Positions 6,419-26,575 of a stretch of 64,000 nt of DNA are shown here, piece after piece (the stretch's first letter is position 1; every line of letters starts with the position of its first letter). The position numbers and the translations under genes are program-made. The stretch comes from Couchioplanes caeruleus (GTDB lineage: Bacteria; Actinomycetota; Actinomycetes; Mycobacteriales; Micromonosporaceae), in contig NZ_CP092183.1 in assembly GCF_023499255.1 (NCBI RefSeq), positions 5,948,501 through 6,012,500 of the forward strand, given 5' to 3'. The notes beneath the pieces are model-generated. The model made no database searches, was not told where the DNA came from, and worked only from the letters and a program-made list of their open reading frames with translations.

Positions 6419-7233
6419 TCATCGCAACTTATCGTGGCTGCGTGGCCGGTCGGGGTTGTCGCTCGTGGCACCCACCGCCGATTGCCGCGAGCCGGGCGGC
6501 GCGGCGGGGCGGCCCCGGCGGTCGAGCACCGTGACGGCCGCGGTCACCAGGATCATGGCCGAGCCGATCACCAGCAGCCCGCACCAGCGCGAATCCGGCG
6601 AAGGCCAGCGGGTAGCCGGGCGCCGCCGCGCACAGGGCGAACCCGAGACCCACCACCGCAGCCGTCCGGGTGACCAGCTTCTCCGGCTCCCCCAGCAGGG
6701 GTCGCGCGCTCACCGCGAGCGAGCCGAGCAGGTTGCCGAGGCCGAACGCCGCCGCCAGCAGGCCGGCCGTACCGGCGTCGACGTGCAGATCGGGGCCGTA
6801 CGCGACGGCGATGACGGCGACCGCCCCGCCCGGCACGGCGGCGACGACGGTCGTGTACATGACCCGGCGCAGCGGCCCGGTGGTCACGATCAGCCGCAGG
6901 GCCTGCCGTACGGAAAGGACCTCGTCCGGGGGCACGGTGTCGCCGCCGGCGGGCAGCGCGGCCAGCCGGCTGCTCAGCCCGCCGGTCAGCAGCGGGCCGC
7001 ACGCGCCCGCCACCGCGGCGAGCGCCCCGACCAGGGCGATCGGTATCCGGCTCAGACCGAGGGTCGCCGCCGCGATCAGCATTCCGTATGCCACGCACAC
7101 CACGGCGATCAGCCGGCGGCCGCGGCACGTCCGGCGTGGTGGCGGCGAGCAGCACGAACCCGACCGCCGCCCCGGCATCCGCACCGCGGGCCAGGGTGGC
7201 GGCGGCCACGTACCGCACCAGAGCCGTCTGCAC
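6419..7233 (-). pseudogene. Decayed MFS transporter gene with frame shifts and probable deletions
   Basis: Read on the minus strand from GTG at 7233, transporter-like protein appears in three successive frames. The first gives a start and one membrane segment (VGFVLLAATTPDV). Near 7115 the reading jumps to a frame encoding further membrane segments (LIAVVCVAYGMLIAAATLG, TTVVAAVPGGAVAVIAVAYG, FGLGNLLGSLAVSARPLLG). Near 6578 it jumps again to LLVIGSAMILVTAAVTVLD and ends at TGA 6419. Only about 270 residues remain where about 400 are usual. Abrupt joins after DVP and after AALPAGGDTV suggest internal deletions. It resembles 12-TMS MFS exporters and is very unlikely to be functional. Confidence 0.75.
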
Positions 7234-7380
7234 GCCGCCTCTGCTACCCGCCGGGCAGGGACGGCACGCATCGCTCGGCCAGGCCGGCCCTCTTCGATCT
7301 GCACCTTCGTCCCCACGGGACGCGCACCGACAGGCAGGAACGGCGGGCGGGGCGGCGGAGCGGATCTACACTCGCCGACC

Positions 7381-8046
7381 ATGCGGGTGCTGGTGGTCGA
7401 GGACGATCCGGAACTCGGTCCGGCCATCGCCGCGGGCCTGCGCGCCACGGGGTTCGCGACCGACTCCGCACGGTTGCGCGAGGAGGCCGATCTCAAGGTG
7501 TCGGTCAACAGCTACGACTGCGTGGTCGCCGATCGCGGGCTGCCCGACGGCGATGCGCTGGAGGCGGTCCGGGCGTGGCGCGGCGCCGGCCGTACGGTGC
7601 CCGTCCTGGTGCTGACGGCGCTGGGGACCGTCGAGGACCGGGTGGCGGGCTTCGAGCACGGCGCCGACGACTACCTGGTCAAGCCGTTCGCCATGGCGGA
7701 GCTGGTCGCACGGGTCCGGGCGTTGTGCCGGCGCGACCAGCCACCGCGGCTGCCGGTGCTGACCGTCGCCGACCTGACCCTCGACGTGCCGCGCCACCGG
7801 GTACGCCGGGCCGGCGTCCTGCTCGCGCTGACCGCCAAGGAGTTCGCCGTCCTGGAGGCGCTGATGGTCCGCGCCGGCGCCGCCGTCACCCGCAGCGAGC
7901 TGCTCGAACGCTGCTGGGACGAGATGAGCGACCCGGCCTCCAACGTGGTCGACGTGGCGATCCGGCAGCTGCGCCGCAAGCTCGGGCCGCCGGACCTCAT
8001 CGAGTCGCTCCGGGGTGTCGGGTACCGCATCCGCGGCGCCGCATGA
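7381..8046 (+). CDS. OmpR/PhoB-family response regulator
   Basis: The product is 221 aa. The receiver domain (about 1-115) has the acidic pocket VVEDD at residues 5-9, the phospho-acceptor D51 in VVADRGLPDGD, a Thr near 80 (VLTALGT) and K101 in YLVKPF. The C-terminal winged helix (about 128-219) shows LTAKEFAVLEALM and the wing region ending RGVGYRIRG. It would be phosphorylated by the kinase whose start codon overlaps its stop (ATGA). No target genes are evident beyond the neighbouring mannanase gene. Confidence 0.95.
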   Translation: MRVLVVEDDPELGPAIAAGLRATGFATDSARLREEADLKVSVNSYDCVVADRGLPDGDALEAVRAWRGAGRTVPVLVLTALGTVEDRVAGFEHGADDYLVKPFAMAELVARVRALCRRDQPPRLPVLTVADLTLDVPRHRVRRAGVLLALTAKEFAVLEALMVRAGAAVTRSELLERCWDEMSDPASNVVDVAIRQLRRKLGPPDLIESLRGVGYRIRGAA

Positions 8047-9278
8047 TCGCCGGGCGCCCGGCCGCCGCCCGGCTGCGACGGATGCGGTGGGCGCTGACGC
8101 TGCTGTACGCCACGGTCAGCGCCGTCTCTCTCGTCACGCTGGTGATGATCGCCGCGTCCATCGACGCCCGGTCGGGTTCCCGCGACCTGGACTCGGAGAT
8201 CCGGGGCCGCGCCGAGGCGCTGTCCCGCGCGATCTGGATGGACAAGGGCACGCTGCACCTCGAACCGCTCGCCGAGGACGAGCTGGCGACGGCCTCGGAC
8301 GTGACGGCGGTCCTGCAGAAGACGGGTACGGCCGACGCGCGGGCCGGCTGGCTGCACCCTCGGCGCGACGGCGCGCTGCCGCCGGCCGGCCGGTTGGACG
8401 ACCTGTGGGCGGCGACCCTGCGGGAGCAGGAACCGGTGCTCGCGACGATCCCGGCACCGGACGGGCGGGAGCTGCGCTGGGCCACCGCGCCGGTGTGGGA
8501 CACCGACGAGATCGGCGCGGTGGTGCTCGTCGCGGCCGACCCGGCATCGGTACGGCGGCGCCACACCGAGCTTGTCCTCTGGCTGGCCGCCGGCTGCGCG
8601 GTGTTGGTGCTGACCTCGGCCGGCGCCGGGCACCTGTTGTCGGGCAAGAGCATGCGTCCCGCGCTGGGTGCGCTCGACCGCCAGGAGCAGTTCCTGGCGG
8701 AGGCGGCCCACGAGCTGCGTACGCCGCTGGCGACCCTCCGCCTCGCCGTGGAGGACGACTCGGGCCGCGACGCCGTACGGCAGGTCGACCATCTGGACCG
8801 GCTGGTGACCGGGCTGCTCGCCCGCGCCCGCATCGACACCGGGATCCGGCCGCTCGAGCTGACGCCGTTGCGGCTCGACCTGGTCGTCGAGCAGGTGGTG
8901 CAGGAGCTCCCGTACGACGATGGGCGGGTGTCGCTGCGGACCGAGCCGACGGTCGTCCTCGGCGACCCGGACCTGCTGGCCCAGGCGGTCCGCAACCTGG
9001 TCGGGAACGCCCTGCGGCACGGCGCGCCGGCCCCCGTGGAGGTGTCCGTGGCGGCGGGCCGGGTGGCGGTCCGCGACCACGGGCCGGGAATTCCCGCCCG
9101 GGACCGGGAACGGGTCTTCGGCGACCGCGTCACCGACGGGCGGGGCGGCATCGGCGTCGGGCTGGCCATCGTCCGATGGGTCGCCGAGCTGCACGGCGGG
9201 CGGGCGCACGTCGCGCCCGCTCCCGGGCCCGGCACGCTCGTCGAGCTGATCCTGCCCCGCTTCATCGTCCGCTCATGA
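8043..9278 (+). CDS. Sensor histidine kinase (HAMP-less, HisKA type)
   Basis: This 411-aa membrane kinase has TM1 at about residues 20-40 and TM2 near 175-195 (ELVLWLAAGCAVLVLTSAGAG), enclosing a periplasmic sensor of about 135 residues. The H-box FLAEAAHELRTPLATLR carries phospho-His at about H223. The N box NLVGNALRHG (about 318), G1 box DHGPGIP and G2 box GIGVGLAIV form the ATPase. The linker between TM2 and the H-box is very short, so a full HAMP domain is not apparent. It overlaps the response-regulator gene by 4 nt and is surely its partner. The signal is unknown. Confidence 0.95.
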   Translation: MIAGRPAAARLRRMRWALTLLYATVSAVSLVTLVMIAASIDARSGSRDLDSEIRGRAEALSRAIWMDKGTLHLEPLAEDELATASDVTAVLQKTGTADARAGWLHPRRDGALPPAGRLDDLWAATLREQEPVLATIPAPDGRELRWATAPVWDTDEIGAVVLVAADPASVRRRHTELVLWLAAGCAVLVLTSAGAGHLLSGKSMRPALGALDRQEQFLAEAAHELRTPLATLRLAVEDDSGRDAVRQVDHLDRLVTGLLARARIDTGIRPLELTPLRLDLVVEQVVQELPYDDGRVSLRTEPTVVLGDPDLLAQAVRNLVGNALRHGAPAPVEVSVAAGRVAVRDHGPGIPARDRERVFGDRVTDGRGGIGVGLAIVRWVAELHGGRAHVAPAPGPGTLVELILPRFIVRS

Positions 9279-16509: not shown

Positions 16510-18264
16510 GTGGCCGGTCCGGCCCTGCGCAAGTGGCGGCTGTCCGCCCGGTCCGCGGAGACGTCCTCCACGATCTTCCTGATCCTGCGCCGGATGCGGG
16601 CGCCGCTGATCGTCCTCATCACGATCTTCGCCGTCAGCGTGCTCGGGCTCACCCTCATCCCCGGCCGGGACGAGGCCGGGCACGCCGTCCGGATGGGCTT
16701 CTTCGACGCGTTCTACTTCATGAGCTACACGGCGACGACCATCGGGTACGGCGAGATCCCCCAGCCCTTCACCGGCGGGCAGCGGCTGTGGGTGATGGCC
16801 ACGATCTACCTGACCGTCGTCGGGTGGGCGTACGCGATCGGGTCGCTGCTGACCCTCCTGCAGGACCGCGCGTTCCGGCAGGCGCTGGCGCTGCAGCGGT
16901 TCACCCGTACGGTGGCCCGGCTGCGGGAGCCGTTCCTGCTGATCGTCGGGTACGGGCAGACCGGGCAGCTGCTCGGCCGCTCGCTGGACGCCATCGGCCG
17001 CCGCTTCGTGGTGCTCGACGCGTCCGGCGAACGCGTCGACGTGCTGGACATCGACTCGTACCACGCCGACGTGCCGGGCCTGGCCGCCGACGCCGGCGAC
17101 CCGCAGGCGCTGGGCGTGGCCGGCCTCGGGCACCCGCGCTGCGAGGGCGTGCTCGCGCTGACCGACGACGACGAGGTCAACCTGGTCGTCGCCATGACCG
17201 CCGCGCTGCTGCGGCCCGGCCTGCCGGTGATCGCCCGGACCGTGTCGCCGGCGATCGAGCAGCGGATGCGGGCCTTCGGCTCCCCCGCCGTCGTCAACCC
17301 GTTCGACCGCTTCGGCGACCACCTGCGGGTCGCGCTGCGCTCACCGGCGTCGTACCAGCTGATGTCCTGGCTGGAGAGCGGCCCGGGCGCGGAACTGCCG
17401 CAGCGGGGCCGGCCGCCCACCGCCGGGCGGTGGGTGATCTGCGGCTACGGCCGCTTCGGCAGGAAGCTCGCCGACGACCTGCGCGCGGAGGGTCTGGAGA
17501 TCACCGTCATCGACGTACGGCCGGACGCGGTCGCCGGGCCCGGCATCGTGGGCGACGCCTCCGAGCCGGCCGTGATGGCCCGCGCCGAGCTGGACCGGGC
17601 GGTCGGCTTCGTCGCGGGCACCGACAACGACACGACGAACCTGTCCCTCATCGCCGCCGCCCGCCGGATCAACCCCGCCCTGTTCATCGCGTCCCGGCAG
17701 AACCGGCCCGCCAGCGCGCCCCTGTTCGCCGCGATGGACACCGACCGCCTGCTGGTGCCGACCGAGACCGTGGCCCGGGAGATCTACGCGCAGCTGAGCA
17801 CCCCGCTGCTCTGGCGCTTCCTGCAGGACATGCCGGGCCGCGGCGACGACTGGGCCGCCGGGATCATCGACCGCCTCACCCGGCTCTGCGGCCCCCACCT
17901 GGGCAGCGTGTGGAAGGTCGAACTGACCAGCCGCGACGCGCCGGCGCTCGAACCGTACGTGCGAACGGGCGACGCCACGGTCGGCGGCCTGCTCCGGAGC
18001 CCGCAGGACCGGGACCAGTCCGTCGCCGCCGTACCGCTGCTGCTGCACCGCGACTCCGGAACCATCCTCGGCCCGGACGGCGACATCACCCTGGAGCCCG
18101 GCGACCAGCTGCTCCTCGCCGGGCGCCCGTCGGCCCGCCGGGCGCTGCTCGACACCATGACCCACCACGCCGTCAGCGAGTACGTGCTGACCGGCCGTAC
18201 GGTTCCCTCGGGCTGGCTGTGGCAGCGTGTCACCGGCAAGGTGCCCCGCAGACCGTCCTCATGA
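16510..18264 (+). CDS. Potassium channel protein with two RCK (TrkA-N/TrkA-C) domains
   Basis: The product is 584 aa. TM1 lies at about residues 31-50. The pore loop and selectivity filter is TATTIGYGE at 74-82, and TM2 is at about 95-118. The first RCK Rossmann domain begins LLIVGYGQTGQLLGR near residue 144 and the second WVICGYGRFGRKLADDL near 305. A TrkA-C-like domain closes the chain (GDITLEPGDQLLLAG). It is a ligand-gated K+ channel whose RCK domains bind nucleotides or cations. GGGGAGG precedes the GTG start. Its 3' end overlaps the convergent peptidase gene by 6 nt. Confidence 0.9.
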   Translation: MAGPALRKWRLSARSAETSSTIFLILRRMRAPLIVLITIFAVSVLGLTLIPGRDEAGHAVRMGFFDAFYFMSYTATTIGYGEIPQPFTGGQRLWVMATIYLTVVGWAYAIGSLLTLLQDRAFRQALALQRFTRTVARLREPFLLIVGYGQTGQLLGRSLDAIGRRFVVLDASGERVDVLDIDSYHADVPGLAADAGDPQALGVAGLGHPRCEGVLALTDDDEVNLVVAMTAALLRPGLPVIARTVSPAIEQRMRAFGSPAVVNPFDRFGDHLRVALRSPASYQLMSWLESGPGAELPQRGRPPTAGRWVICGYGRFGRKLADDLRAEGLEITVIDVRPDAVAGPGIVGDASEPAVMARAELDRAVGFVAGTDNDTTNLSLIAAARRINPALFIASRQNRPASAPLFAAMDTDRLLVPTETVAREIYAQLSTPLLWRFLQDMPGRGDDWAAGIIDRLTRLCGPHLGSVWKVELTSRDAPALEPYVRTGDATVGGLLRSPQDRDQSVAAVPLLLHRDSGTILGPDGDITLEPGDQLLLAGRPSARRALLDTMTHHAVSEYVLTGRTVPSGWLWQRVTGKVPRRPSS

Positions 18265-19371
18265 GACGGTGCGCAGCTCCCGGCTCGAGTTGTTCAGCGC
18301 GCGCCCGCCGTCGTCAGTGACCGTGACGATGTCCTCGATCCGTACGCCGAACCGGCCGGGCAGGTAGATCCCCGGCTCGATCGAGAAACACATGCCGGGC
18401 ACCAGCGGCTGCGTCTCGCCCTCCACGATGTACGGCGGCTCGTGCGTGGACAGCCCGATCCCGTGCCCGGTGCGGTGGATGAAGTACTCGCCGTAACCCG
18501 CGCCGGCGATCACCCCGCGGGCGACCCGGTCGATCTCCTGACAGGCGACCCCCGGCCGGACCGCCTCGAACGCCGCCCGCTGCGCCCGCCGGACGACCTC
18601 GAACACCTCCCGCTCCTCGTCGTCCGGCTCGCCGACGTGCACCGTGCGCGTGGTGTCGGAGGCGTACCCGTCGAGCAGCCCGCCGAAGTCCAGGACGACC
18701 ATGTCCCCCTCCCGGATCGTCCGGTCACCCATCTCGTGATGCGGGTCGGCACCGTTCGGGCCCGAGCCGACGACCGTGAAGTCCACCCGCTCATGCCCGT
18801 GCTCGCGCAGGAGGGCGGCGAGGTCCGCGCCGACGTCCCGCTCCCGCCGCCCGGCGAACCGCACCCCGGCGATCCGCTCGAACGCCGCATCGGCCGCAGC
18901 GCCCGCGGCCGCCAGCCGCTCCAGCTCGCCGGCATCCTTGACCGCCCGCACCATCGGCAGGGCCGCGGTCATCGAGACGTACCGGGACCGCGGCGAGGCC
19001 TGCTGCAGGGCGAGCACGTGCAGGGCCCACGCCGAGTCCGAGATCGCGAAGGTGCCGGGCGGGTCCAGCAGCTCCGCGACGCGGGCGTACGGATCGGTCC
19101 CGTCGGCCCAGCCGGCGAGCTCGAGGACGGCCGCACCGGGGGCCCGCTCGGCGTCGGCCCGCTCCAGCAGCGGGGCGATCAGGAACGGCTCGCGGCCGGG
19201 CCGCAGGACCAGCATGGTGAGCCGCTCGGTCTCCGCGGGCGGCCGATATCCGATGAGGTACGCAAGGTCGGGGCCGGGCGTCACCAGCAGCCCGGCCAGC
19301 CCGGCCGCGACCGCCTGCTCGGTGGCCCGCCGCATCCGCCCGGTGAAGGTCTCCGTCGAAATGGACTGCAT
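18259..19371 (-). CDS. M24-family Xaa-Pro aminopeptidase/dipeptidase
   Basis: This 370-aa cytoplasmic enzyme has an N-terminal creatinase-like domain (about 1-130) and a pita-bread catalytic domain. The dinuclear metal ligands are visible: two Asp in VVLDFGGLLDGYASDTTR, His in HRTGHGIGL, Glu in SIEPGIYLPG and Glu in VRIEDIVTV. It cleaves peptides with Pro at position 2 or Xaa-Pro dipeptides. It starts 13 nt after the HIRAN/DUF4041 gene on the same strand and has no good ribosome site of its own, so the two may be co-transcribed. Confidence 0.9.
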   Translation of the reverse strand: MQSISTETFTGRMRRATEQAVAAGLAGLLVTPGPDLAYLIGYRPPAETERLTMLVLRPGREPFLIAPLLERADAERAPGAAVLELAGWADGTDPYARVAELLDPPGTFAISDSAWALHVLALQQASPRSRYVSMTAALPMVRAVKDAGELERLAAAGAAADAAFERIAGVRFAGRRERDVGADLAALLREHGHERVDFTVVGSGPNGADPHHEMGDRTIREGDMVVLDFGGLLDGYASDTTRTVHVGEPDDEEREVFEVVRRAQRAAFEAVRPGVACQEIDRVARGVIAGAGYGEYFIHRTGHGIGLSTHEPPYIVEGETQPLVPGMCFSIEPGIYLPGRFGVRIEDIVTVTDDGGRALNNSSRELRTVS

Positions 19372-19384
19372 ATGACGATTTCTA

Positions 19385-21931
19385 TCAGGCGTTGCTCCCG
19401 GCCGACGCCGGCTCCGAGCCCTGGGCGGCGAGGCGTTGGGCCTGGGAGCGGCTCTGGCGATACTCCAGCGCTACCGGCGTCTCCTCGTACTGCAACAGAT
19501 TGCCGGCCAGGTCCTTGAGATGCTGTTTCGCTTCGGCCGGAGTCGCGTAGAAGAATTCCCGCCGGTGGTTGACCATGTTGACCCGCCGGTCGGCCAGCCG
19601 GGAGTGCATGGCGGCCTCGATTCCCACCGCGTCGTCGGAGAAGAACAACGCATGGACGTCGAAGGTGAACGGAACCGACGCGTCGCCCAGCTCGCGCACC
19701 CGGTCCATCGGATCGAGTCGCCGCGTCATACCAACTTTGATCATTCCTTCGCCGAACGCGCCGAGGTTCGAGATCACGTATACGTAGCCGGCGCGAACAT
19801 TGGCGGCGCGGTAATCGACGTCCTGAATCGCGGTATCGATCTGGGCGAGCCGCTCCTGCAGCTGAGCCAGCCCGTCAGTGTCGCCCGTGGCCTGGAGTGC
19901 CGCGACGGCGTTCGCGTAGTGCTGACGTTCTTTGTCCAGCCGAGCCCGCTCCCGCTCGATCTCCTGCTGGAGCCGGCGCTCCTCCCGAAGCCGCGCCTTC
20001 TCCTCCCGGTCGCGTTCCTTCTCCTCCGCGAGCTTCTCCTGGTAGTCGCTGGTGAGACCGAGTTCCTGAACCCGAAGCCGGTGGTATTCCTCGGTGATGC
20101 GGATGTCCATCGTCTTGCCGAGCCGGGCGATGGTGGCGGCGACCTTGCCGAGCCGGTCGATCGCGGCCGGCAACTTGTAGGGCTTCAGCGTCCGGACCAG
20201 ATTGTCGGCTTCGGCGTTGTACGCCCGCAGCATCAACTTGGAGTAGTCGCGGAGCATGGCACGCCCCTGAGCGTCCGACCCGTTGACGGTCCAGCCGGCC
20301 GCGGACCGCACCGCCCCACCCTCCGCCTTGGCCATCGCCTTGATGCGTTCCTGCAGGCCGGCCAGGGCGTCCTGGTACGCGACCGCATCGCTGAGCGGAT
20401 GTTGATATTCATAGACGCCGACCTCCTGCAGGAGCGCCTTCTCCTCGGTCACCACGACCTGCTGTCTCAGCTCGTCGAGCCGGCGCTGCAGCTCCGCTTG
20501 CTCTGCCCGGCTCTTCGCCGTCAGCTCCGCGATCTCCTGTTCCAGGCGGCGGCGATAGTCCTCCAGCTCCTCGATCCGAAAGACCCCGAGCCGTTCCATC
20601 CGGGCGCGCAGGTCCTCAAGCTCAGCACGAAGCTGAGTCGCCTCGGCTGCCAGCTCGCGTGCCTTCCCGCGAGCCCCGAACAACGGGATGCCAGCGCCAG
20701 TTGCGTCCGGCGGAGGAGACGTATGCGCCGTGGGCGTCGGAAGTGGCGGCTCCAGCACCGGGGGAGGCGCCGCTGCCACCGCGCTGGCCGTGCCGGTCCC
20801 GGGAATCCACAACTGCCATCCCGGCGGCACGGGTCCCCAGGCCGGGTCCGGCACCCATCCGGGCGGTGGCGTCCAGCCTGGAGGCGGTGCAGGCCAGTTC
20901 GGCGGTGCCTGGAAGCGGAACCCGGACGATTGATTTCTCCCTGCCGGTGTCGGCATCGCCGGGACGGAGCTCGGCCGCGTGGGTGCCGGGGCAGGCTCCA
21001 GCTGCGCACGACCCGGGATCAAGGGCACGGTACTCGGGAGAACCGGCGCGGGGCTCGGGGCCGGAGGGGCGGGGCTCGGGGCGACGGGTACAGGGGCCGG
21101 CGGTGCGATGACAGCGGCGGGTCTCTGCACCGGCACGGCGGCGTCCGCAGCACGACCCAGCCAGCTGTCCGCCAGGTCGTGAGCGCGTGCCGCGTACAGG
21201 ACGACCTCCGCCTTGATCCGGTTGCCCTTCACGACGGCCCGGGCGCCGGTGACCAAGTCACTCTCGCCCAGGTGCCGGATGGCGGGCAGCATGTCGCCGC
21301 TCATCCTCGGAGTGAGCTGACCGATCCGGGCCCCGTCGATACGTACCTCGACGAGGCTGCGCGAGCTGCGCAGGAGCTCCTCGGTGATCTCGTGCAGGGT
21401 CGCGTACACCCAGCATTCGCCCTCCGGGCGCAACCAGGGCAGCAGCGCGTTCAGGTGCGCGTGCTCGCCGGTGACCTGAATGGCCGTTCCCGCGGGCATC
21501 ATCCGGTGCGGCTCGATGGGCGGCTGGTTCGCCGGCACGAGCATGTGCGGCTCAGCCAGGTCGAGCCGCACGGAGGCCCGGAAACCGTCCCGGTCCTGGG
21601 AGCCGGCCGACCACTGGGCCGCCCAGATGCGGGAGGACACCTGGGGCGTCCATCCTCGTGCGACCAATGCCAGCAGTACGGATGAGTACCGGGCCGCCTC
21701 CTGGCGAGGCAGGTAGCCGAGCTGGTGGGGTCCCGACCAGACCCCGACCGCATGCCGATCATGTTTGTTCAACGGCTCGGGAATCAATTGCACCGTGGCC
21801 GTGATCTCGGCACCGTCAGAGGTCAAACGCGATCCAACAAGGGCCTTGATCGCATTCGTGTAGTGGGACTCCCCCACCACATCGAGAGACGCCCATCCTC
21901 GCTGACCCCAGAGATCAAATGCTGCTGACAT
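19385..21931 (-). CDS. HIRAN-DUF4041-T5orf172 multidomain protein
   Basis: The product is about 848 aa. Residues about 12-105 form a HIRAN domain (LDVVGESHYTNAIKAL, then LIPEPLNKHDRHAVGVW and QLGYLPRQEAARY). A second beta-rich segment covers 130-250, with VEVRIDGARIGQLTP. A Pro-rich linker with PPGW repeats covers about 265-400. A long coiled coil runs through a DUF4041-like region (about 420-710). The C-terminal T5orf172/GIY-YIG-like domain (about 715-800) shows GYVYVISN, MIKVGMTRR, catalytic-type Glu in GIEAAMHSRL and RREFF. HIRAN binds damaged or single-stranded DNA and T5orf172 is nuclease-like, so DNA repair or phage defence is likely but inferred. GC is about 62-65%, below its neighbours. 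A GTG at 21940 with GGAG 9 nt upstream is an alternative start. Confidence 0.8.
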   Translation of the reverse strand: MSAAFDLWGQRGWASLDVVGESHYTNAIKALVGSRLTSDGAEITATVQLIPEPLNKHDRHAVGVWSGPHQLGYLPRQEAARYSSVLLALVARGWTPQVSSRIWAAQWSAGSQDRDGFRASVRLDLAEPHMLVPANQPPIEPHRMMPAGTAIQVTGEHAHLNALLPWLRPEGECWVYATLHEITEELLRSSRSLVEVRIDGARIGQLTPRMSGDMLPAIRHLGESDLVTGARAVVKGNRIKAEVVLYAARAHDLADSWLGRAADAAVPVQRPAAVIAPPAPVPVAPSPAPPAPSPAPVLPSTVPLIPGRAQLEPAPAPTRPSSVPAMPTPAGRNQSSGFRFQAPPNWPAPPPGWTPPPGWVPDPAWGPVPPGWQLWIPGTGTASAVAAAPPPVLEPPLPTPTAHTSPPPDATGAGIPLFGARGKARELAAEATQLRAELEDLRARMERLGVFRIEELEDYRRRLEQEIAELTAKSRAEQAELQRRLDELRQQVVVTEEKALLQEVGVYEYQHPLSDAVAYQDALAGLQERIKAMAKAEGGAVRSAAGWTVNGSDAQGRAMLRDYSKLMLRAYNAEADNLVRTLKPYKLPAAIDRLGKVAATIARLGKTMDIRITEEYHRLRVQELGLTSDYQEKLAEEKERDREEKARLREERRLQQEIERERARLDKERQHYANAVAALQATGDTDGLAQLQERLAQIDTAIQDVDYRAANVRAGYVYVISNLGAFGEGMIKVGMTRRLDPMDRVRELGDASVPFTFDVHALFFSDDAVGIEAAMHSRLADRRVNMVNHRREFFYATPAEAKQHLKDLAGNLLQYEETPVALEYRQSRSQAQRLAAQGSEPASAGSNA

Positions 21932-22015
21932 GGCGGACACGGTACGGAACTCCGCGCGCGACAAGGTGCTTCAACGCTCCTGCGAACCTCCTTTCCACCC
22001 AGCCGGAACGTCGGC

Positions 22016-22063
22016 GAAATAGAGAAGATCAGGGGTAGACGGGAGCCTGTTGGTCTCTATTTC
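22016..22063 (-). repeat. AT-rich 10-bp inverted repeat upstream of the HIRAN/DUF4041 gene
   Basis: GAAATAGAGA at 22016-22025 is perfectly repeated in inverted form as TCTCTATTTC at 22054-22063 around 28 nt. Such AT-rich arms are unusual here. It lies just past the ABC-permease stop and about 85 nt before the HIRAN/DUF4041 gene, on the transcribed strand of both. It could be a terminator or a two-site operator. Confidence 0.55.
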
Positions 22064-22073
22064 ATCGTCCCGC

Positions 22074-22862
22074 CTAGTTGCCGGCGCTCTCGTAGCGGCG
22101 CATTCCGCGCTTGAAGATGATCGCCGCTGCGGCCGCGCAGTACACCGCGACCAGGGGTGTCAGCAGGCCGATCCAGCGCGACTGCCCGCTGTCCAGCAGG
22201 TACGCGACCGGGAAGAAGCTGATGAACGCGAACGGCAGCGCCGCGCCGAGGGCTGCCTTGAGCGCCAGGGGGTAGATCGAGAGGGGGAAGCGGGCGAGGT
22301 CGCCGACCTGGTGCATCGCGAACGCGAACAGCGGGGTGGGGCTGGAGAGCCAGAACGACACCGCGTTGGTGGCCAGGTTGATCGACAGCTTGATGACCAC
22401 CGAGCTGATCAGCAGCACCACGCCGAGCAGCACCCGCCACGGTGTCCAGGCGATGTCCACGTGGGCCAGGCCCGTACTGATCATGATGGTGCCCATGACG
22501 ATGTTGCTCAGGCCGTTGACGCCGATGTTGGCGCTGCTGGACTGCAGGGCCACCGGGTACGGGCGGACCAGGAAGTAGTCGAGCTCGCCGCGGTTGATCT
22601 GCCAGGCCAGGGACCACATGCCGTCGAAGAACAGCGAGCCGACGCCCTCGGCGAGGGCCACCGCGCCGAACATCATCAACACGGACCAGAACGTCCAGCC
22701 GTTGAGCGCCGGGACCTTCGCGAACAGCGCCGCCAGGAAGACGATGTTGACGACCTGCATCAGCACCGTGGCCACGACGAGGATCACGAAGTCGGCCTCG
22801 TACTCCAGCAGGGACCGGAAGTGGGCGCCCAGCAGCCGCAGGTAGAGCCGTACGGTTCGCAT
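22074..22862 (-). CDS. ABC-2 type exporter permease
   Basis: This 262-aa integral membrane protein has six predicted TM segments and the pattern of the ABC-2 permease family that pairs with NodI/CcmA-type ATPases (LEYEADFVILVVATVLMQVV at the start, then YFLVRPYPVALQ in the middle). It is the third gene of an ATPase-permease-permease operon and begins 1 nt beyond the previous stop codon. The transported molecule is unknown; related systems export antibiotics or glycans. Confidence 0.88.
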   Translation of the reverse strand: MRTVRLYLRLLGAHFRSLLEYEADFVILVVATVLMQVVNIVFLAALFAKVPALNGWTFWSVLMMFGAVALAEGVGSLFFDGMWSLAWQINRGELDYFLVRPYPVALQSSSANIGVNGLSNIVMGTIMISTGLAHVDIAWTPWRVLLGVVLLISSVVIKLSINLATNAVSFWLSSPTPLFAFAMHQVGDLARFPLSIYPLALKAALGAALPFAFISFFPVAYLLDSGQSRWIGLLTPLVAVYCAAAAAIIFKRGMRRYESAGN

Positions 22863-22863
22863 G

Positions 22864-23649
22864 TCAGCCTCCGTTCACGGTGAGCCGGCGAAGGCCCGCG
22901 CGCCACACCAGGCGCGCGCCGAACCACAGGACGAGGACCCAGCCGAGCTGCACGGCGACGAGCTGCAGCCCGTGCCGGCCGTCGACGCGGCCCAGGAAGA
23001 TCAACGCGGGGGTCGAGGTGAGCCCGGCGAACGGCGACCACTGGGCCACCGAGGCCAGCCAGCCCGGCAGGTACGCCAGCGGGATCAGCGCGCCGGACAG
23101 CAGGTTCACCACGGCCAGGCGCGCCCACTGCACACCCATGTAGTTCTGCGTCCAGAAGCAGGTCAGCGTGCTCACGTAGACGATCAGGAACTTCAGCGGT
23201 ACGAGCAGCAGCATGCTCGTGACGAACAGAGCGAGCGCCGGCGCGGCCGGGGTGTCCACGCCGCCCGTGACCGCCAGCGTGATGCCGACGACCACGCCGA
23301 TGAGGATCAGCTCGATCCACAGGCCGCCGACCGCCTCGGCGAACCGGGCCTTCTGGTAGTCGATCGGCTTGACGAGGTCCAGCGCGACGTCGCCGTCGAG
23401 GATGCGGAACGCCATCCGGAAGTCGCCCAGCAGCGAGACCACCGTGCCCGCGGCGAACGCCACCAGCAGGTACGCCCGCATCTGCGGCCAGGTGAAGCCG
23501 TTGACCGCGGACTCCGCGAGGATCACCCGCCACACCGCCAGCAACGCGACGAGCTGGACCAGGACCGCGCCCAGGCCGAGCAGCAGGCTGAACCGGTACG
23601 CGAGCGCCGCCTTCGCGGTGGCCCGGATCAGGGCCCGGTAGCTCCTCAT
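22864..23649 (-). CDS. ABC-2 type exporter permease
   Basis: The 261-aa product has six TM segments and the same layout as its downstream neighbour, including LDGDVALDLVKPIDYQKARF where the other has YFLVRPYP. The two permeases therefore look like diverged copies that form a heterodimer. Its start overlaps the stop of the ATPase gene by 4 nt. Substrate unknown. Confidence 0.88.
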   Translation of the reverse strand: MRSYRALIRATAKAALAYRFSLLLGLGAVLVQLVALLAVWRVILAESAVNGFTWPQMRAYLLVAFAAGTVVSLLGDFRMAFRILDGDVALDLVKPIDYQKARFAEAVGGLWIELILIGVVVGITLAVTGGVDTPAAPALALFVTSMLLLVPLKFLIVYVSTLTCFWTQNYMGVQWARLAVVNLLSGALIPLAYLPGWLASVAQWSPFAGLTSTPALIFLGRVDGRHGLQLVAVQLGWVLVLWFGARLVWRAGLRRLTVNGG

Positions 23650-24647
23650 CCGAGCACCAGCTCACCGGAGTACACGCGCCGGATCACGTCCTCGATGCTG
23701 GGCTCGTCCACCCGGAAGTCCACCAGCTCGGTGAGGCCGGCCAGCGTGGTCACCGCCTGCCCGGCCGTCATGGCGAACCGGTCGAAGCGCACCGCGTACC
23801 GCAGCGGGGTGTCCTCGGCCTCGACCTCCGCGCCGGGCAGCGACGCCCGCAGGGTCTCCAGCGGCACCGGCCCGGCGGTCTCGAGGTGCAGGATCCGTTC
23901 CCGCGCGAACCGGTCCTTCACCGCCTCGAGGTCGCCGTCGAAGATGATCCGGCCCTGGTCGATGATCACCAGCCGCCGGCAGAAGCCCTCGATGTCGGCC
24001 AGGTCGTGGCTGGTCAGCATGACGGTCGTGCCCTCGTCGCGGATGCTGCGGAAGAACTCCCGGACGCGGTCCTTCACCGCCAGGTCGAGCCCGATGGTGG
24101 GTTCGTCCAGGTAGACCACCTGCGGGCCGTGCACCAGCGCCGCCGCGAGGTCGGCGCGCATCCGCTGGCCCAGCGACAGCTTGCGCCCGACCACCGGCAG
24201 GATCTCGCCGAGCTCGAGGACCTCGTCGAAGCGGGCCATCCGCTTGCGGTAGGTGGCGTGGTCGACGCCGTAGATGTCGCGCAGCACGGCGAGCGACTCG
24301 GCCACCGGCAGGTCCCACCAGAGCTGCGTCCGCTGCCCGAACAGCACGCCGATGCGGTGCGCCACGGTGGTGCGGTCGCGCTGCGGGTGCAGGCCGTCGA
24401 TGCGTACGTCGCCGGCGGTGGGAACCAGGATGCCGCTGAGCAGCTTGACGGTCGTCGACTTGCCGGCGCCGTTGGGGCCGACGTACGCCACCGCCTCACC
24501 GGCCTCGATGGACAGGTCGACGTGGTCGACCGCGACCTTGTCGGTGAAGCGGCGTGCGAACAGGTGCCGGACCGCCCCGGCCAGGCCGGGTCCCTTGTCC
24601 GGGCGGCGGAACACCTTGGTCAGGCCCTGGGCCTCCACGATCGGCAT
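23646..24647 (-). CDS. ABC exporter ATP-binding protein
   Basis: The product is 333 aa. Walker A is GPNGAGKSTTVKLLSG (about residue 55), the Q-loop lies in VLFGQRTQLWWDLP, the signature is LSLGQRMRADLAAALV (replacing LSGGQ), Walker B is VVYLDEPTIGLD and the H-switch is TSHD. The N-terminus has an extra segment before Walker A (RRPDKGPGLAGAVRHLFARR), typical of the subgroup acting with paired ABC-2 permeases. It energises the two permeases downstream. The first gene of the operon, with its start preceded by GGGGG about 10 nt away. Confidence 0.93.
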   Translation of the reverse strand: MPIVEAQGLTKVFRRPDKGPGLAGAVRHLFARRFTDKVAVDHVDLSIEAGEAVAYVGPNGAGKSTTVKLLSGILVPTAGDVRIDGLHPQRDRTTVAHRIGVLFGQRTQLWWDLPVAESLAVLRDIYGVDHATYRKRMARFDEVLELGEILPVVGRKLSLGQRMRADLAAALVHGPQVVYLDEPTIGLDLAVKDRVREFFRSIRDEGTTVMLTSHDLADIEGFCRRLVIIDQGRIIFDGDLEAVKDRFARERILHLETAGPVPLETLRASLPGAEVEAEDTPLRYAVRFDRFAMTAGQAVTTLAGLTELVDFRVDEPSIEDVIRRVYSGELVLG

Positions 24648-24726
24648 ACGAAAGCAACCCCCGTCTGGATGCCGACATTGACCGGCACCACCGTACGGAA
24701 CCGCTTCCGGAGCGCAAGCCCATTTC

Positions 24727-26415
24727 CTACGTGCATCGCAACGCGGGACCGTCCTGGCGGCACCACAGCGCCGCGCCCGGCCGGTACGTGGTCGCGTACC
24801 CGACATAGTGGTAGTCGCTGTTGAGGCCGTTGTTGTGCGGCGCTCGCCCGGCCGGGTCGAACGGCCGCACCGACAGGTGCGCCGGCGGCCGGCCGGTCGA
24901 CCCGGCGGTGACCGGCAGCGTGAGCGTCCCCGGGGCGATGCCGTCGCGGACCCAGCGCACCAGCGGCGTCATCATGTCCACCACCGTGGCGGGGTCGCCG
25001 TCCACCGGTTGCCCGCACGGGCAGTGGTACAGGCCGGGGATCATGTAGAGGCGGGAGAACGACTGCGCGCGGGTGAAGCCGCCGGACCACCGGCTGACCT
25101 CGCGGTAGTAGTCCAGGCTCTCGAACGGTGGGATCGCCTGATCCGCCCAGCCGTGATAAATGATCAGCTTGCCGCCGCGGGCCGCGAACCGGCGCAGGTC
25201 GGGGTTGGTCGCGTCGTAGATGTCGCCGACCTCCTGCAGCCGCCGGTGCTCGGCGACCGTGAAGCGCACGTCGCGCAGGCCCATGGTGACCGGCGGGTTG
25301 TGCCAGAAGGCGGCGTTGCGCAGATAGTTCAATCCCAGGGCCGCCGCCACGGTGTCCCCGGGGGCCGCCGCGTCCGCCGCCGGCTGCACGGCCCACACCT
25401 GCCAGGCCAGCTCCGAGCCGTACGGCATGCCGCCGTCGAACAGGTTGCGGCCCCGCCTGTCGACCGGACCCCGGTAGAACGCGCGGACCACGGCGATCTG
25501 GGGCGCGGTCAGGCAGGCGGGCGTGTCGGTTCCCGCGGGACAGCGCAGCGCCGAGGGCTGGAAAGTGCACGCGCGCGGATCGGTGATGACCCCGTCCGCG
25601 CCGGCGCAGGCCCGCATCACCGCGGCGTGCAGCGCGGGCAGCTTCTCCGCGGTGAGGATCTGCCGGTCGTGGCGGTCGAGGTTCACCCGGGCCAGCCAGG
25701 GCTCGAAGAGCCCGGCGAGCGCCGACCAGTTGTTGGCCGGCGCACCGGCGACGATGCCGTCGAAGTCCCCGGGGAAGCGCTGCGCCAGGTCGAGTGCCTC
25801 GTGACCGCCGTCCGAGACGCCGTCGAAGTACCGGCGGGCCGCGTCGCGCCCGTAGTACGCGCGGATCAGGGCGCGGGCGGTGATCGCCATGCTGTGCTCG
25901 GACGAATAGCCGAAGACCACCCGCAGCTGCGGGTCGTCGCGCGCCCACAGGGTGTCCGTGTTGACCGCAGCCTCGTGGCCCTGGTCGTCGGCCGCGACGA
26001 CGAGCTCGCCGTTGCCCAGCGCCGGGAACGGCGCCTGGTAGCCGCTGGTCCGGGACGGGTCGGTCAGCGACAGCCCGACGGCCCCGCAGAAGCCGCCGCA
26101 GCCCTGCTGCAGGTAGTCGCCGGCCCACGTGGACACCGGCAGCAGCACCTCGAAGCGGGTCTGCGGGCTGATGTACCCGGTGACGGAGCAGTACCGGTGT
26201 CCCTCGCGCGTCACCTCGGCGGCGCCGCCGACCGACGTCCGCACCCGCGCGAGGTCGAGGGTGGCCAGCGCCGGGCACGAGACCACGGGTGCGATGCGGC
26301 CCGGCGCCACCGCGGGCTGCGGCGCGGCCCCGGCGCCCGACCCCACCCCGACCGCGGCGCCGAGGGTGATCACGGACGTGGCCAGGGCGGCGATTCGACG
26401 GGTGAGCCGGGACAT
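24727..26415 (-). CDS. Secreted tannase/feruloyl esterase-family protein
   Basis: This 562-aa protein starts with a signal peptide (RRIAALATSVITLGAAVGVG). It follows the tannase/feruloyl esterase plan: nucleophile Ser in YFDGVSDGGHEALDLAQRFP, then GAPANNW, an acidic residue in YHGWADQAIPP, and His in PGLYHCPCG. Substrates would be plant phenolic esters. The Cys that normally precedes the nucleophile Ser (CS-D-HC disulphide) is Val here, while the Cys after His is kept. AAGGAGTG precedes the ATG. It is divergent from another secreted esterase. Confidence 0.85.
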   Translation of the reverse strand: MSRLTRRIAALATSVITLGAAVGVGSGAGAAPQPAVAPGRIAPVVSCPALATLDLARVRTSVGGAAEVTREGHRYCSVTGYISPQTRFEVLLPVSTWAGDYLQQGCGGFCGAVGLSLTDPSRTSGYQAPFPALGNGELVVAADDQGHEAAVNTDTLWARDDPQLRVVFGYSSEHSMAITARALIRAYYGRDAARRYFDGVSDGGHEALDLAQRFPGDFDGIVAGAPANNWSALAGLFEPWLARVNLDRHDRQILTAEKLPALHAAVMRACAGADGVITDPRACTFQPSALRCPAGTDTPACLTAPQIAVVRAFYRGPVDRRGRNLFDGGMPYGSELAWQVWAVQPAADAAAPGDTVAAALGLNYLRNAAFWHNPPVTMGLRDVRFTVAEHRRLQEVGDIYDATNPDLRRFAARGGKLIIYHGWADQAIPPFESLDYYREVSRWSGGFTRAQSFSRLYMIPGLYHCPCGQPVDGDPATVVDMMTPLVRWVRDGIAPGTLTLPVTAGSTGRPPAHLSVRPFDPAGRAPHNNGLNSDYHYVGYATTYRPGAALWCRQDGPALRCT

Positions 26416-26575
26416 GGGACTCACTCCTTCCTGCGGTGGCGCAGCCGTTGCATCGTCCGTCCGGGCAGAGATCGAAGTCAATGCGTGTGGCCGGGCCACC
26501 TTCCACTGCGCGGCGTTTTTGTGATAGACCGACGACGATGCGTGACATCTAGCGTGATCGACACGAGGAGACCGC

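Follow-up and report, generated by a model that had tools for sequence, protein, structure and literature searches.

In a stretch of 64,000 nucleotides of Couchioplanes caeruleus (contig NZ_CP092183.1, positions 5,948,501 to 6,012,500; hereafter the window), one gene joins a tandem pair of HIRAN-type domains to a SNIPE-type nuclease; the gene is real and conserved, and it is a new SNIPE variant. SNIPE, also called PD-Lambda-1, is an anti-phage nuclease described in 2026 that blocks phage, binds the tape measure protein and cuts phage DNA during injection (PMC13190303). As read from its sequence, the half of the window protein that comprises the coiled coil, DUF4041 and the GIY-YIG domain is a SNIPE/PD-lambda-1 homologue with an intact active site, and the protein as a whole appears to be an untethered homologue, not a membrane-bound SNIPE. 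A defence role of this HIRAN-SNIPE protein is probable. Our leading reading, to which we assign a probability of about 0.45, is that of a cytoplasmic SNIPE-type anti-phage nuclease in which end recognition by the first HIRAN domain would replace membrane tethering as the safeguard. It retains the sensor-effector design that an initial annotation, made by a model from the DNA letters, had proposed.

The gene starts with ATG, and Pfam matched HIRAN, DUF4041, T5orf172 and MUG113 in the product, each above the cut-off, thereby confirming the earlier proposal that HIRAN, DUF4041 and a T5orf172 nuclease are combined in one gene (Table 1). Matches of the coiled coil to ASRP, Rad50 and phage scaffold proteins were generic and were discarded as composition.

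Table 1. The fusion gene, its domains and its site in the window, with the loci of a related gene pair in the genus
Feature	Residues	Positions or loci	Strand	Remark
HIRAN-HIRAN-PW-DUF4041-GIY-YIG gene	848 aa	19385..21931	-	
HIRAN domain 1	1-134	21530..21931	-	pocket residues N55 and D58 retained
HIRAN-like domain 2	135-260	21152..21529	-	divergent; without pocket motif
Pro-rich linker	261-336	20924..21151	-	predicted disordered, pLDDT 30-52
PW mini-domain (Trp/Pro)	337-378	20798..20923	-	fusion joint
Coiled-coil-type segment, mostly helical, N-terminal of DUF4041	425-564	20240..20659	-	structure prediction
DUF4041	565-620	20072..20239	-	Pfam
GIY-YIG / T5orf172 nuclease	714-810	19502..19792	-	Pfam, alignment, structure prediction
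E772 codon, counterpart of SNIPE catalytic E414		19616..19618	-	alignment
M24 peptidase gene		18259..19371	-	starts 13 bp downstream of the fusion gene; flank of the exchange site
Stretch for which relative G022 has 948 bp carrying two small unrelated genes		19356..22068	.	
ABC transporter (ATPase and two permeases, by eye)		22074..24650	-	right flank of the exchange site
HIRAN2-PW and helicase-nuclease loci		L071, L072, L074, L075, L077-L080, L100, L102-L113, L115-L119		

The nuclease half was assigned by profiles and alignment. The PADLOC PD-Lambda-1 model matched residues 428-834 of the 848-aa protein with an E value of 1.5e-112, and PHROG 1847 matched the protein with an E value of 4.4e-115. 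The SNIPE reference was the CDS annotated as PD-lambda-1 in Escherichia phage PhiR26_1 (L121), which carries the residues numbered in the SNIPE paper (E223, N250, W257, E264, I308, T319 and E414; PMC13190303), and its E414 aligns with E772 of the window protein. Y718, K732, G734, R744 and E772 are invariant in an alignment of 14 rows, which bears out the earlier statement that the GIY-YIG catalytic residues are intact. Identity to E. coli SNIPE is 32% in the alignment; the coiled coil, DUF4041 and the C-terminal GIY-YIG domain with its catalytic Glu are shared with SNIPE/PD-lambda-1 (PMC9519451, PMC13190303), and in the E. coli protein the nuclease residue and DUF4041 are both essential (PMC13190303). 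The initial annotation named these domains and missed that together they correspond to PD-Lambda-1/SNIPE, whose anti-phage nuclease action is experimentally proven. The words HIRAN and DUF2510 are absent from the main text of the SNIPE paper (PMC13190303), and no mention of HIRAN joined with SNIPE or with DUF4041 was found in the literature searched, although N-termini of this kind may be listed in the supplementary tables of that paper; the sole literature match for HIRAN with T5orf172 was the author name Hirano.

Unlike SNIPE, the 848-aa protein has no transmembrane anchor and carries the HIRAN domains and PW, a Trp/Pro mini-domain, in its place. No transmembrane-like segment was found in it by hydropathy, the strongest 19-residue (KD19) value being 1.01, against 3.37 at residue 6 of the L121 SNIPE. 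E. coli SNIPE deprived of its transmembrane segment causes nuclease-dependent toxicity and cuts the chromosome, and sparing self by location is, according to the SNIPE authors, a previously unknown prokaryotic immune strategy (PMC13190303). Since the anchor is missing, the window protein, if functional, must distinguish friend from foe by other means. A predicted transmembrane segment is also absent from 34% of SNIPE homologues (PMC13190303), so that the anchor is typical of SNIPE but no requirement for homology to it.

PW has the motif NWPxPPxGWxPPxGWxPDPxWxPxPxGWQLW in the window protein and no Pfam match. In the structure prediction, residues 341-380 form a block with pLDDT 79-89 between linkers at 30-52; the region that the initial annotation called a Pro-rich linker also contains this conserved element, which lies at the fusion joint. 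A PW HMM, built from 25 proteins belonging to the set on which it was later counted, detected PW, among the matches listed, in 39 of the 41 SNIPE-type and 134 of the 138 HIRAN2 proteins; in 129 of these 134, PW lies 15 residues or fewer from the C-terminus. The element is C-terminal in HIRAN2 proteins and N-terminal in SNIPEs, and the fused proteins, by reading of their sequences, have one PW each, of the SNIPE type (GPxPPGWQLW). Besides the fusion gene, a PW alignment search of the window genome gave a single weak hit. It falls in a DUF2510-(PPPGWQ)n frame that has one membrane-like segment and is the only other PW-like place of the genome and its only DUF2510 place.

Beyond the genus, PW is the regular companion of the nuclease half. 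SNIPE matches (E <= 0.001) occurred in 70 of 354 genomes of the family, with 3 of 14 control genomes also matching; 53 matching genomes lie outside the genus, and 40 loci were fetched from them, omitting weak, fragmentary and a few other matches. PW lies N-terminal of the nuclease half at 39 of these loci and DUF2510 at one, while the KD19 value stays below 1.6 at 39 and exceeds it at the 40th only upstream of the PW start. No HIRAN2 gene was present in the fetched surroundings of any of the 40 loci (up to about 6-8 kb per side, some cut by contig ends). Frames of at least 800 aa with a SNIPE match were, among the matches listed, confined to the genus of the window. DUF2510 is carried by a SNIPE copy on a Rhodococcus plasmid and by one in a mycobacteriophage; Pfam matched it in L157, L122, L123 and the exonuclease of L004 and found no match in the 848-aa protein. 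That PW is related to DUF2510 is a guess. A search that used just the SNIPE half as query matched 40 phage records, 30 of which are listed; in four phage regions read, HIRAN was absent from the two scanned with Pfam and the other two had short N-termini, and a scan of IMG/VR for close relatives gave no phage-borne fusion. DUF4041-T5orf172 proteins, described earlier as mainly known from phages and mobile DNA, are indeed phage-borne, but the family matches show that they are chromosomal as well.

Two observations at these loci concern other partners of PW-SNIPE. In L133, from another genus of the family, positions 6746-9055 (-) encode a TerD-PW-SNIPE protein (TerD E 1.6e-31), which makes TerD, after HIRAN, the second sensor-type domain seen fused ahead of PW. 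A DEDDh exonuclease (L004:4481-6373; PADLOC PDC-S48, with DUF2510) adjoins PW-SNIPE, and its relatives stand beside SNIPE at 10 of the 40 outside-genus loci (L136, L138, L147-L150, L152, L155, L160 and L162), two of these relatives being matched in part only; the exonuclease and PW-SNIPE are likely a two-gene system.

The main competitor of the end-sensing reading is localisation by PW. In that account the nuclease would be brought to the envelope or to sites of injection by PW and a partner, whether or not HIRAN takes part; DUF4041 would meet the tape measure protein much as in canonical SNIPE, and HIRAN would contribute only affinity for the incoming DNA. The occupation of the SNIPE anchor position by PW or DUF2510 at 40 of 40 outside-genus loci points this way, as do the strong constraint on PW, which almost reaches that on the nuclease, its prediction with fair confidence, the membrane-like segment of the DUF2510-(PPPGWQ)n frame and the non-TM membrane-targeting N-termini, PH domains for example, predicted for other SNIPE homologues (PMC13190303). 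However, PW has no known membrane binding, a hydrophobic segment is lacking, the membrane-type example is a single one, and the HIRAN domains would be superfluous; we regard this account as possible but doubtful.

For the end-sensing reading, the first HIRAN domain carries the argument. It was matched by both sequence profile and fold, and HIRAN was the leading match of a whole-model PDB search that covered the entire predicted structure; the HIRAN fold suggested earlier for residues 1-260 was found for domain 1. The adjoining part, called a second beta domain in the initial annotation, appears to be a divergent HIRAN-like domain, in which the DNA-pocket motif was not found. The HLTF segment NNPYDKNA aligns with residues 54-61 of the window protein (LNKHDRHA). 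N55 and D58 are conserved in 47 of 47 sequences, the position of HLTF Tyr93 is His in 45 and Tyr in two, with His in the window protein, and the position of N90 is variable and is Leu there. In HLTF, the NN90,91AA substitution abolishes HIRAN function, and Y72 and Y93 stack on a dinucleotide. HIRAN 1 shares with the HIRAN domains of HLTF and Rad5, eukaryotic proteins acting at forks, its fold and, in the pocket region, one Asn and the Asp; the window protein differs in having a tandem pair fused to a nuclease, no helicase or RING and His at the Tyr93 position. Bacterial HIRAN domains have been termed uncharacterised (PMC11090510).

In the end-sensing reading, HIRAN 1, with the Asn and Asp of the HLTF pocket region kept, would bind free (3') single-stranded DNA ends and, together with the DNA-binding face of DUF4041, would direct the nuclease to phage DNA entering in linear form; the circular chromosome would offer few free ends and would be spared. 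The divergent domain 2 may have a structural role or make protein contacts, and PW may serve as an assembly or localisation tag common to HIRAN2-PW and PW-SNIPE proteins; their occurrence both as adjacent genes and as PW fusions would then be accounted for. The listing of DNA-end sensing for Shedu in a review (PMC12904381) provides a precedent for the end-licensing principle. Shedu is a different protein family, and whereas ends license the nuclease in Shedu and other DNA-end-sensing nucleases (PMC12904381), for the window protein we only infer the principle. HIRAN was reported near deoxydinucleotide nucleases and HipA, in actinomycetes and near defence genes (PMC11706625), an association that involves a different nuclease and separate genes, unlike the fusion.

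The leading reading also draws on the common descent of the fused copies, the purifying selection on both ends of the fusion, the split gene pairs, the HIRAN2-PW genes upstream of another helicase-nuclease and the recent exchange at the site, all described below. Several points speak against it. HIRAN 1 has His for Y93 and Leu for N90 of HLTF, and domain 2 is without the motif; breaks and forks expose DNA ends in the host as well; and an untethered SNIPE can do without HIRAN, because all 40 SNIPEs examined outside the genus carry PW or DUF2510 and lack HIRAN2. The derivation of the 26 helicase-nuclease linkages from one locus, the twelve HIRAN2 loci with neither nuclease and the absence of a defence island around the window gene (see below) weigh on the same side. 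The finding at the 40 loci bears also on the proposal that HIRAN is autoinhibitory and antitoxin-like, silencing the nuclease until infection displaces it. Such a silencer would be needed given the toxicity of untethered E. coli SNIPE, an antitoxin role has been predicted for HIRAN proteins encoded beside HipA kinases (PMC11706625), and a split pair of HIRAN2-PW and PW-SNIPE genes exists. But with no HIRAN2 gene around any of the 40 outside-genus loci, a linked HIRAN is not required to silence SNIPE, and HIRAN 1 keeps its DNA-pocket motif; we consider autoinhibition very unlikely.

Within the genus, the Pfam model gave 50 HIRAN matches in 38 of 67 genomes, three of which (L061-L063) are of another HIRAN type and 47 are HIRAN2 loci; these 47 are the loci reached by the Pfam model, to which a DNA search adds at least two HIRAN2-type places (G041:C61:53311-53942 and G002:C6:414408-414781). 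SNIPE matches, weak and partial ones included, occurred in 17 of 67 genomes (E <= 0.001; 3 of 14 controls also match). By tblastn, HIRAN2-PW is fused upstream of SNIPE in 8 of the 67: seven copies are intact (window, L081-L084, L087 and L089), and L092 is broken into two frames. In L088, HIRAN2-PW and PW-SNIPE are separate adjacent genes, 35 bp apart on one strand, and three more protein pairs on equal-sized contigs (53,786, 14,844 and 13,564 bases), from a comparison covering 120 of 393 proteins, suggest further split pairs. At 26 of the 47 HIRAN2 loci, in 26 genomes, the HIRAN2 match lies 0.77-3.6 kb upstream, on the same strand, of a DUF4011-helicase-MTES_1575 nuclease gene (Hhe/PDC-S37; the L077 copy matches PADLOC PDC-S37 at 2e-246 and Hhe at 1e-108). 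The 26 HIRAN2 copies form one clade (100/100) and hence represent one conserved pair, not 26 independent events. Unlike the fusion, this nuclease is encoded separately from HIRAN2-PW, and it is absent beside the window gene. Twelve of the 47 loci have neither SNIPE nor the helicase-nuclease within the fetched stretch.

Some genes of the genus stand apart from this pattern. In G012:C6, a helicase-nuclease gene similar in length to those of the 26 loci had no HIRAN match in the Pfam search. That PDC-S37 genes are core was rejected, as 66 of 67 genomes match, yet so do 8 of 14 control genomes. L062:6742-7431 and L063:4621-5214 encode a different, mutually related HIRAN protein with unrelated neighbours (one ATPase-like in L063).

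The distribution bears on whether the protein could be a chromosomal repair or recombination nuclease, guided by HIRAN to breaks or stalled forks and cutting branched DNA with its GIY-YIG domain; DNA repair was the alternative named in the initial annotation. This account draws on the action of HLTF and Rad5 at forks, the recombination role proposed for T5orf172 (PMC7824862), the GIY-YIG domain of Slx1 among weak fold matches (E 2.1) and the conservation of the HIRAN2-PW/helicase-nuclease pair in 26 genus genomes. Against it, the SNIPE half is patchy (17/67 genomes) and exchanged between near relatives, copies are decayed or partial in several genomes, and the nearest homologue with a characterised function acts against phage; we hold this account to be unlikely. 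The SNIPE half does not show the scattered housekeeping distribution that the initial annotation had named as counting against its proposal; for the HIRAN2-PW/helicase pair such a distribution was not rejected.

A SNIPE tree, built by a quick method from 58 rows (those with <280 aligned residues were meant to be excluded), unites the 8 rows of fused copies in one clade with an SH-aLRT of 99. In the HIRAN2 tree the fused copies group, at a weak support of 83/33, with L064, L068 and L073 nested inside, and the inner group of L087, L089, L064, L068 and L073 is firm (98/97). PW is joined straight to an ABM-like domain in L064 and L068, and an ABM-like small gene (weak Pfam match) overlaps the SNIPE stop in L089 (11711-12025). 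Given the separate position of this domain after SNIPE in L089, L064 and L068 most likely arose by excision of the nuclease half; these two and probably L073, which belong to the twelve loci with neither nuclease, would have lost the SNIPE half and retained the HIRAN half.

In five pairs, dN/dS was 0.04-0.10 for the nuclease, 0.12-0.44 for HIRAN 1, 0.13-0.30 for domain 2 and 0.09-0.27 for PW, values that are rough because dS is high. Linkers were mostly less constrained, the Pro-rich linker being the least constrained part in most pairs, and one dS was saturated (linker, window versus L081). These ratios point to purifying selection on HIRAN 1, domain 2, PW and the nuclease. An accidental fusion, arising from misassembly or from a decaying functionless gene, might be suspected from the broken frames of L092 and the nuclease losses in L064, L068 and probably L073, but the seven intact copies, each from a different genome, show purifying selection on all domains and already contradict it, and we give it almost no credence.

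The neighbours of the fused gene differ among the window, L081 and L082, and flanking genes are common to L083 and L084 and to L087 and L089. In the relative G022, both flanks are 94-96% identical, and the place of window 19356-22068 is taken by 948 bp that hold two small genes, one of them resembling MarR by eye. As these two genes are unrelated to the fusion, the site was recently exchanged, in line with the transfer suggested earlier; the window may have gained the gene or G022 may have lost it. A Tannase-type gene (by eye; window 24727-26548) is also absent in G022, where the flank matches meet with 7 bases between, and it constitutes a second nearby recent gain or loss.

A defence island does not surround the window gene. 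Among 41 window neighbours (40 of 43 called genes and one gene), 31 PADLOC families matched, and the 25 of 31 listed had one protein each; of the nearest genes, the ABC ATPase and a subtilase alone had a match, and PADLOC gave none for the M24 peptidase. The peptidase as an operon partner was unsupported: the gene is a flank of the exchange site, and relatives of it occur close to two solo HIRAN2 genes. In these two loci (L065 and L067), the window-type peptidase relatives lie about 3 kb from HIRAN2-PW with a SulP-type transporter between. For the six other intact fused copies, 65 of 66 neighbours were scanned and 69 PADLOC families matched, of which 25 are listed; the Leo-type, C5-methyltransferase and MzaA matches all fall at L083, the sole clear defence-type neighbourhood of the six. 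There the fused copy adjoins dynamin-like LeoA/LeoBC genes and a gene for a C5 methyltransferase, along with an MzaA match (L083:11687-19489); the methyltransferase and Leo genes were scanned in L003, which covers this stretch in the same species. The defence context expected by the initial annotation is thus weak, lacking around the window gene and clear only at L083.

A broader view, which we offer tentatively and as rather doubtful, is that Micromonosporaceae maintain a mix-and-match platform of immunity in which PW joins exchangeable sensors (HIRAN, TerD) to exchangeable nucleases (SNIPE, the DUF4011 helicase-nuclease), with tandem HIRAN for DNA ends and TerD for stress; the fusion would be its one-protein form, in which foreign DNA is told by its free ends and not by its location. 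The SNIPE anchor is absent throughout the examined loci of one family, and one genus has added a DNA-end-type domain. Split, fused, SNIPE-less and HIRAN-less forms occur naturally, thereby making the discrimination between self and phage by an untethered SNIPE directly testable. If the end-sensing reading is true, bacterial HIRAN domains would gain a defined role.
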